This document shows, piece by piece, positions 33,560 to 35,805 of a stretch of 37,383 nt of DNA (the stretch's first letter is position 1; every line of letters starts with the position of its first letter). A program made the translations under genes and the position numbers. Source of the DNA: Clostridiales bacterium (GTDB lineage Bacteria > Bacillota > Clostridia > Oscillospirales > Oscillospiraceae); assembly GCA_020859945.1 (NCBI GenBank), contig JAJBVG010000094.1, positions 1 through 37,383 of the forward strand. Direction: 5' to 3'. The notes beneath the pieces are model-generated. The model was not told where the DNA came from, did no database searches, and saw only the letters and a program-made list of their open reading frames with translations.

Positions 33560-33581
33560 TAGTGTCATTATACGGACACTA
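33560..33581. promoter_or_regulatory. Inverted repeat over the -10 of the 108-residue protein gene
   Basis: TAGTGTC (33560-33566) and GACACTA (33575-33581) form a perfect 7-bp inverted repeat with an 8-base centre. The centre holds a perfect minus-strand TATAAT (33572-33567). It is a likely operator. Confidence 0.6.
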
Positions 33582-33648
33582 TTTATCTTCTGATTTTACT
33601 CGCATAATAAAGATAATGCAAGTGCAACCTCAGAAGCTGGGAGAATCG

Positions 33649-33864
33649 ATGATTAAATACGACAGATTATGGGTGACAATGAAGGAAAAGGGCGTTTCAC
33701 AGTACGACCTTTACACCCATTATGACATTGGCCGGTCCCAGCTGGACCGGCTGCGAAAAAATAAAAACGTGGAGACTAACACCATTGACCGGTTGTGCAG
33801 CATCCTCCACTGCAACGTGGAGGACGTAATGGAATACGTCAGCGACCCCGAACAGGAAGAATAG
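33649..33864 (+). CDS. Cro/CI-type helix-turn-helix regulator
   Basis: A 71-residue single-domain regulator of the HTH_26 (YozG-like) type: IKYDRLWVTMKEKGVSQYDL at the start, the turn and recognition helix around GRSQLDRLRKN and the typical end TIDRLCSILHCNVEDVMEYV. ATG at 33649 is chosen because the family begins here and GGGAGA lies just upstream; a longer in-frame extension is not part of the fold. It is divergent from the 108-residue gene and followed by a strong terminator. Confidence 0.9.
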   Translation: MIKYDRLWVTMKEKGVSQYDLYTHYDIGRSQLDRLRKNKNVETNTIDRLCSILHCNVEDVMEYVSDPEQEE

Positions 33865-33906: not shown

Positions 33907-33950
33907 CGTCCTTGACGAAATTATTTGCTCAAATTTTCAATAAATTGTCA

Positions 33951-33980
33951 TTGACAGGCCATATATGGGTGTGGTATAGT
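33951..33980 (+). promoter_or_regulatory. Promoter of the repeat-bearing RNA
   Basis: TTGACA (33951-33956), 18 bases, TATAGT (33975-33980). Transcription would start near 33987, about 15 bases before the first repeat. Confidence 0.8.
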
Positions 33981-34001
33981 AAAAGTACACAAATGGTTGT
34001 T

Positions 34002-34154
34002 GTGTTTTCTTACCTCTAAGGGATTGATACAGCGAGGTGCTGTCCTCTCAAGCTTATCCATAACTGCCTCGAGTGTTTTCTTACCTCTAAGGGATTGATA
34101 CATTCCTCCTGCTTCCATTGCCAAGTCTTTGACTGTGTTTTCTTACCTCTAAGG
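34002..34154 (+). CRISPR. CRISPR-like mini-array, two full repeats and one truncated
   Basis: Repeat copies lie at 34002-34031, 34073-34102 and 34135-34154. The first 20 bases, GTGTTTTCTTACCTCTAAGG, are identical in all three. Copies 1 and 2 continue identically with GATTGATACA, while copy 3 diverges, as terminal CRISPR repeats often do. The unique segments between them are 41 and 32 bases. The repeat resembles type I-B/III repeats of Clostridia, which carry a TTACCTATGAGG-like core and end in ATTGAAAC. The small number of repeats, unequal spacers, absence of cas genes and flanking inverted repeat leave the call open. Confidence 0.5.
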
Positions 34155-34178
34155 ACTCCGCACACAACAACCAAAAAC

Positions 34179-34217
34179 CGGGACAGACGAACCAACCACG
34201 TCTGTCCCGGTTTTTGC
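34179..34217 (+). terminator. Strong intrinsic terminator of the repeat-bearing RNA
   Basis: A 14- to 17-bp stem (AAAAACCGGGACAGACG with CGTCTGTCCCGGTTTTT) around a 9-base loop, ending in a T-run. It is symmetric enough to act on both strands. Confidence 0.92.
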
Positions 34218-34224
34218 ATTTTTC

Positions 34225-34328
34225 TGTAGGGGCGGCCCTTACCGTCAAGCGGTACTTCCGCTTTGCTCCCTGTGGCCGCCCGAAAACCCACGCGAAACCT
34301 GCGGGCGGCGGAGCGCCGCCCCTACACA
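34225..34328. repeat. GC-rich palindromic repeat, family R2, copy 3
   Basis: The longest copy (104 bases) opens with TGTAGGGGCGGCC and ends with GCGCCGCCCCTACACA. It shares ACGCGAAACCTG with copy 2 and GGCCGCCCGAAAAC with copy 1. It has an extra insert near the left arm (about 34240-34268) with its own ACCG/CGGT pairing. Confidence 0.78.
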
Positions 34329-34378
34329 AACGAAGATGTTCACAGCGTGGTAAAGCGCTGATTTGGAACTTCTTCTTT

Positions 34379-35429: not shown

Positions 35430-35805
35430 TGGTGGAGGCGACGGGAGTTGAACCCGTGTCCGAAAACGCATCCTCAGGACCTTCTCCGGGCGCAGTCAGT
35501 TGTTTCCATTCCCTTACCGCGCCGTGAACTGACACACTGCGCGGTTTGGTAGCTTCATAAATTCATGGAGCCGTCAAAGCTTTCGGCCCTCACGTTTCCC
35601 ACTAAAAGGCATCACCCAGCCCGGCCCGTGGGCCTTCCGGGATCGGCGTCCGCGCACATTGGGCGGAGGTCGCAGAGCCTAATTAGGCCGCGACAGCAAC
35701 GTATTCGTCGTTGTTCTTTGATTTATAAGTGCCCATTGATAAGCGGCTGGGCGCCGCTGCCCGCTAGTCCGGCCTCAACGTCCCCGTCGAAACCGGTACG
35801 CCCCC
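35430..35805 (-). ncRNA. ssrA: Transfer-messenger RNA
   Basis: A 376-base tmRNA. The 5' end GGGGGCG (35805-35799) pairs fully with CGCCTCC before the encoded ACCA 3' end (35430), forming the tRNA-like acceptor stem. TTTCGACGGGG near the 5' end and the T-arm CGGGTTCAACTCCCG near the 3' end are typical. The tag reading frame ends with NNDEYVAVAA and TAA (35685-35683); with an upstream resume codon it would be about 14-16 residues, possibly from GTYKSK. It rescues stalled ribosomes together with SmpB, encoded 1.2 kb away. Tandem terminators follow. Confidence 0.95.

Follow-up and report, generated by a model that had tools for sequence, protein, structure and literature searches.

The window, by which we mean the whole stretch of 37,383 nucleotides analyzed here, carries a mini-CRISPR unit at positions 33951-34217, 3′ of a small open reading frame (33562-33864) that by eye resembles an HTH regulator. 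The unit is arranged in the order promoter, 29-nt repeat, 42-nt spacer, repeat, 33-nt spacer, 20-nt terminal repeat and terminator. The length of the repeat, GTGTTTTCTTACCTCTAAGGGATTGATAC, was set by comparison with sister units. A preliminary description of this DNA had counted three copies of a 30-base repeat separated by unique segments of 41 and 32 bases. The three copies and the shortening of the third to 20 nt were confirmed, but the repeat length and both segment lengths had to be corrected by one nucleotide: the 30th base is common to the copies because both spacers start with A, and thus the spacers are 42 and 33 nt long. The features of the locus are as follows.

33907-33950, + strand: upstream block beginning CGTCCTTGACGAAAT..., common to several sister units (comparison of the leaders of 17 units, by eye)
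33951-33980, + strand: promoter with -35 TTGACA, an 18-nt spacer and -10 TATAGT; 11 of 12 consensus positions match
33994-34005, + strand: left arm of the inverted repeat that encloses the array; it overlaps the first 4 nt of repeat 1
34002-34030, + strand: CRISPR repeat 1 (29 nt), the reference copy for identities
34031-34072, + strand: spacer 1 (42 nt), absent from the orthologous unit of genome G001
34073-34101, + strand: CRISPR repeat 2 (29 nt), 100% identical to repeat 1
34102-34134, + strand: spacer 2 (33 nt), absent from the orthologous unit of G001
34135-34154, + strand: terminal repeat, with the first 20 nt retained and the 5′-handle part ATTGATAC gone; 80% identical to repeat 1
34162-34173, + strand: right arm of the enclosing inverted repeat, pairing perfectly over 12 bp with 33994-34005
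34172-34216, + strand: intrinsic terminator with a perfect 18-bp stem (34172-34189 with 34199-34216), a 9-nt loop and a T-rich 3′ side

The promoter is the one that had been reported earlier, and the terminator mentioned there is confirmed as well. This terminator was not listed by the terminator scanner because the scanner accepts loops of up to 8 nt. An imperfect inverted repeat adjoins the array (arms 34221-34239 and 34312-34330), and the segment 34221-34330 has matches at many places in the genomes of the genus.

Units with the same repeat were found elsewhere in the window's own genome (G000, in which the window contig is C90), in the relative G001 and in other genomes. A search of 59 genomes gave matches in seven, three of which (G020, G027 and G031) matched in the terminator only. 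G000 holds seven units with 23 spacers, namely the window unit, two on C29, two on C67, and those on C22 and C30, and G001 holds five units with 20 spacers; a sixth G001 match, located at one end of C6, duplicates the C80 unit and was not counted. One unit with eight spacers is present in G029, a single repeat with no spacer in G015, and three units with six spacers in the C.5_7 MAG, as found by an exact repeat scan of named genome contigs. A search with the repeat did not find it in viral contigs. The total is 17 units and 57 spacers, with spacers in 16 of the 17 units and a mean spacer length of 36.8 nt; one listed C29 spacer (44 nt) includes a piece of a duplicated repeat, its true length being about 37 nt.

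The 29-nt repeat is exact in 43 of the 57 non-terminal copies. The 5′-handle ATTGATAC is missing from all 17 terminal repeats (in G015, from its only repeat) and is present in 50 of the 57 others. A promoter of the searched form lies 21-22 nt upstream of the first repeat in 15 of the 16 units tested, G015 being the exception; the first unit in L061 was excluded from the promoter and inverted-repeat comparisons because its first repeat is degenerate. One type of terminator is common to all nine satellite units, seven of which lie at five G000 sites or their orthologues, and the cas-proximal units use others. By eye, the palindrome CCATATATGG occurs in the promoter spacer of seven of the nine satellite units and in none of five units of the cas-proximal type.

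The window unit and the C78 unit of G001 occupy the same locus, as shown by flanks of about 1.4 kb each with identities of 92% and 94%. The promoter, repeats, inverted repeat and terminator of these two units are alike, and their spacers, two in each, are completely different. The C22 and C80 units, with flanks 95% and 97% identical, have four and two spacers, respectively, and none in common. When all 57 spacers were compared pairwise, none was related above the shuffled level except one borderline pair, both members of which are in G000 (score 15, compared to shuffled maxima of 11-14 in 20 runs of a control that compared one strand only). The mean G+C content of the spacers is 46%, compared to 60% for the window. 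The preliminary description had proposed that turnover or covariation in relatives would tell the readings apart. The spacers turn over while the repeats and the leader remain constant, which is what CRISPR predicts and not what a structured RNA family predicts. With near-identical direct repeats and unique spacers of similar length, the window unit is a genuine CRISPR array and not a new RNA family.

Two other readings of the locus had been raised before. One was a family of structured small RNAs in which a closing stem encloses three protein-binding motifs. The perfect 12-bp stem speaks for it, as does the folding of the predicted transcript, which is more stable than that of shuffled sequences when the terminator is included (z = -5.5; matched by none of 200 shuffles) and less clearly so when it is left out (z = -2.3; matched by 3 of 200). 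However, the segments between the repeats vary freely across orthologous sites, to the point of being completely different. In addition, the units hold anywhere from 0 to 9 spacers, and no Rfam family reaches its gathering score at the unit (the sole match in the window is the tmRNA at 35430-35805, minus strand), so that we consider such a family extremely improbable. The other was an array co-opted for host gene regulation through its repeat-spacer RNA, for which one can cite the tiny size of the unit, its own promoter and its position 3′ of the HTH-like frame noted by eye. This would be very improbable too, since the orthologous site of G001 has different spacers and, in a search of G000 and 31 other genomes of the genus with E values up to 1, the window spacers matched nothing above chance outside arrays. 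The best non-array match was in G014 (E = 0.028, 26 nt, 88%), and the best within G000 had an E value of 0.19.

Searches for targets covered viral contigs, phages, plasmids and genomes of the genus and the order, each with subsets of the 57 spacers, and no protospacer was found in them. Exact patterns from seven spacer cores had no matches in viral contigs. Seven array queries, out of the 16 spacer-bearing units, were compared with phages; six gave no match and the seventh gave two at chance level (E = 0.04 and 0.5). The window array had a single chance-level match among plasmids (E = 0.4). A G001 array searched against 295 genomes of the order matched the G000 arrays and, weakly, two other places (E = 0.006 and 0.009), and three G000 arrays searched against the 32 genus genomes gave array matches and weak ones, the best non-array E values being 0.02-0.05.

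No cas genes had been seen in the window, and its contig has no match to Cas1, Cas6 or Cas10. The whole-genome search that had been suggested revealed a type III-B operon on contig C30 of G000, with corA, cmr1, cas10, cmr3, cmr4, cmr5 and cmr6 in one direction and an array with the same repeat just past cmr6 on the opposite strand. All six genes of the III-B set (Cas10/Cmr2, Cmr1 and Cmr3-6) are matched by PADLOC models in G000, as is corA (733-2328 of L043; E = 5.6e-67). CorA and Cmr1 had gone unrecognized by Pfam and NCBIfam before PADLOC recognized both; the NCBIfam cut-offs are passed by two G000 proteins (Cmr2 and Cmr6) and by the G001 Cmr4, but not by the G001 Cmr3. The same operon is found on C43 of G001, where arrays with the same repeat lie on both sides of cmr-corA-cas6 and an intact Cas6b gene (L041 14965-15702; PADLOC E = 3.3e-55) diverges from corA, with an array beyond it. 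In G000, Cas6 is represented by two partial matches to TIGR01877, located at contig ends (C30 and C67) and scoring 46 and 38.9 bits, short of the family cut-off of 58.65; an earlier reading of Cas6 as missing, from a search with PF10040, was dropped on this account.

Close relatives of this Cas10 occur in two of the 32 genus genomes, G000 and G001, which are those with multi-unit arrays; G029 and the C.5_7 MAG carry the same repeat but no close Cas10 relative. In translation, the Cas10 of both G000 and G001 contains GGDD and has no HD in its first 50 residues. No Cas1 match was found at the III-B operon when the genomes were searched for Cas1. The Cas1 matches of G000 are on C54 and C60, in loci of type I-C (Cas3c in both, Cas7c on C54) whose repeats are unrelated to the III-B repeat. 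These are draft assemblies, whose contigs are linked to one another through binning, though the same set is seen in G001. Several other defense-like genes were noted in passing. G029 has a type III-D-like Cas10 with a Csx10/Cas7-like gene on C44 (L120 195-3200), although the trailer of its single array with this repeat is of the type seen in the III-B array next to the cmr genes. Some 2.8 kb away from the long III-B array, C43 of G001 has a 1143-aa open reading frame (L041 111-3542) whose first residues, read by eye, look zinc-ribbon-like at the start and TIR-like after that; it is possibly another defense gene. On C45 of G001 (L055 14636-18787) there is a 1383-aa Cas9, adjoined by a short Cas1 match in a 128-aa open frame.

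Among the earlier suggestions, these results favor a supply of crRNA for Cas proteins encoded elsewhere, and they narrow the guess of a clostridial type I-B/III repeat to III-B. The unit is an orphan in position only, as its cognate operon is on another contig of the same genome. We are confident that it is a satellite mini-CRISPR array of this type III-B (Cmr) system, with its own promoter and terminator, and it probably supplies guide RNAs to the III-B complex encoded on the other contig. Four direct observations point this way: the anatomy of the array, the difference in spacers between orthologous units, the presence of this repeat next to the cmr operon as well, and the gene content. In the mechanism that we propose, the promoter would drive a short pre-crRNA ending at the unit's own terminator, and Cas6b would probably cleave within every complete repeat, 8 nt upstream of the spacer, so that the handle AUUGAUAC remains. 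The two resulting crRNAs would load into the Cmr complex, and pairing of a crRNA with invader RNA would cause the HD-less, GGDD-bearing Cas10 to synthesize a nucleotide second messenger. This messenger, which may be SAM-AMP if the analogy with Bacteroides fragilis applies, would activate the CorA-like membrane effector.

The array might instead be a dead, decaying remnant, once part of III-B and no longer acquiring spacers or used. Decay would fit the small number of spacers in the window unit (two), the lack of a Cas1 match at the III-B operon, the single repeat of G015 with no spacer, the G031 site that has no unit, and the related terminators that stand in other genomes without any repeats. 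On the other hand, the promoter and the two complete repeats agree with the consensus, the terminator stem pairs without mismatch, G000 and G001 have completely different spacers at their orthologous sites, and the reading frames of corA and the cmr genes are open in both. We therefore regard a remnant as unlikely and favor a satellite array that serves the Cmr system.

We also asked whether the satellites share a form of their own. The preliminary description had pointed to the 12-bp inverted repeat enclosing the array, and its perfect arms are indeed present. Pairing of 11-12 bp with the unit's own right arm is seen in C90, C22, C78 and C80, which represent two sites, and 0-2 of 500 shuffled right arms pair as well there. 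Pairing is weaker in the remaining five satellite units (45-254 of 500 as good), and in seven cas-proximal and other-genome units it is not above that of shuffles (211-500 of 500 as good). The inverted repeat was at first taken as strong covariation evidence, which was scaled down since it is clear at two satellite sites only; the permutation value of p = 0.009 ignores the relatedness of the units. Between C90 and C78 one G-C pair of the inverted repeat is replaced by T-A, with both sides changed, which is suggestive rather than conclusive; the pairing may act at the level of RNA or of DNA.

For C29a, C30 of G001 and C104 of G015, about 100 nt upstream of the leader are shared and the surrounding DNA is not, which places these units at non-homologous sites. 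They had been considered as orthologous sites, which was dropped because only short scattered matches occur beyond the ~100 nt upstream; the downstream comparison for C104 was limited to the 278 nt of existing DNA. G031 has the window's locus without the unit, and the upstream block 33907-33950, which is probably part of the cassette, is missing from that site as well. By eye, related terminators persist in G020 and G027 at sites where G000 has units. No target duplication was seen at the satellite sites. From these sequence comparisons we infer that the satellites may move as cassettes, made up of the shared upstream block, promoter, array and terminator. The fuller proposal, that they are mobile cassettes of about 300 bp that have spread to non-homologous sites and whose leader-trailer pairing closes the pre-crRNA into one domain, is tentative, and we hold it to be possible rather than likely. 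If true, leader-trailer pairing would be a processing or insulation device of arrays that act in trans, and the closed domain together with the handle-less terminal repeats would suppress useless guide RNAs.

In this clean natural example a single III-B operon, with no Cas1 beside it, is accompanied by numerous tiny arrays, and the spacers are nonetheless completely different between two relatives, G000 and G001. Two questions thereby become testable: which Cas1-Cas2, if any, writes into III-B satellite arrays, and does leader-trailer pairing shape type III crRNA production.

The system resembles the type III-B CorA systems of B. fragilis and Clostridium botulinum, as described in excerpts of PMC10600005 and PMC11229360, in having cmr1-6, a CorA effector and Cas6. 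According to the excerpt of PMC10600005, the B. fragilis Cas10 lacks HD, has an intact cyclase and works with CorA through SAM-AMP; the Cas10 described here likewise has no HD and keeps the cyclase motif, as judged from sequence. In contrast to what those excerpts describe, Cas6 is divergent here, the operon lacks a Cas1 match, and the arrays are broken up into numerous small units at dispersed places. Several arrays with identical repeats per genome are reported to be frequent, and III-B arrays to vary in their distance from cas genes (PMC12814883, in part), and therefore the general arrangement found here is known in kind; seven units per III-B operon exceed the average of 1.48 arrays per locus given in that excerpt and are within its reported range. 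The less ordinary features, which are unproven, are the cassette form and the leader-trailer pairing. Among the titles and abstract openings listed by searches of open-licence literature, none concerned a leader-trailer helix in type III. Excerpts of PMC13187072 and PMC12080349 report leader-repeat hairpins that limit extraneous crRNA in types II-A and VI-B, and mutated extra repeats, upstream terminators and hairpins in type II-C. The pairing found here is like the II-A and VI-B hairpins of those excerpts in that base pairing of the leader could affect pre-crRNA processing, and unlike them in that the leader can pair with the trailer past the last repeat, across the whole array.
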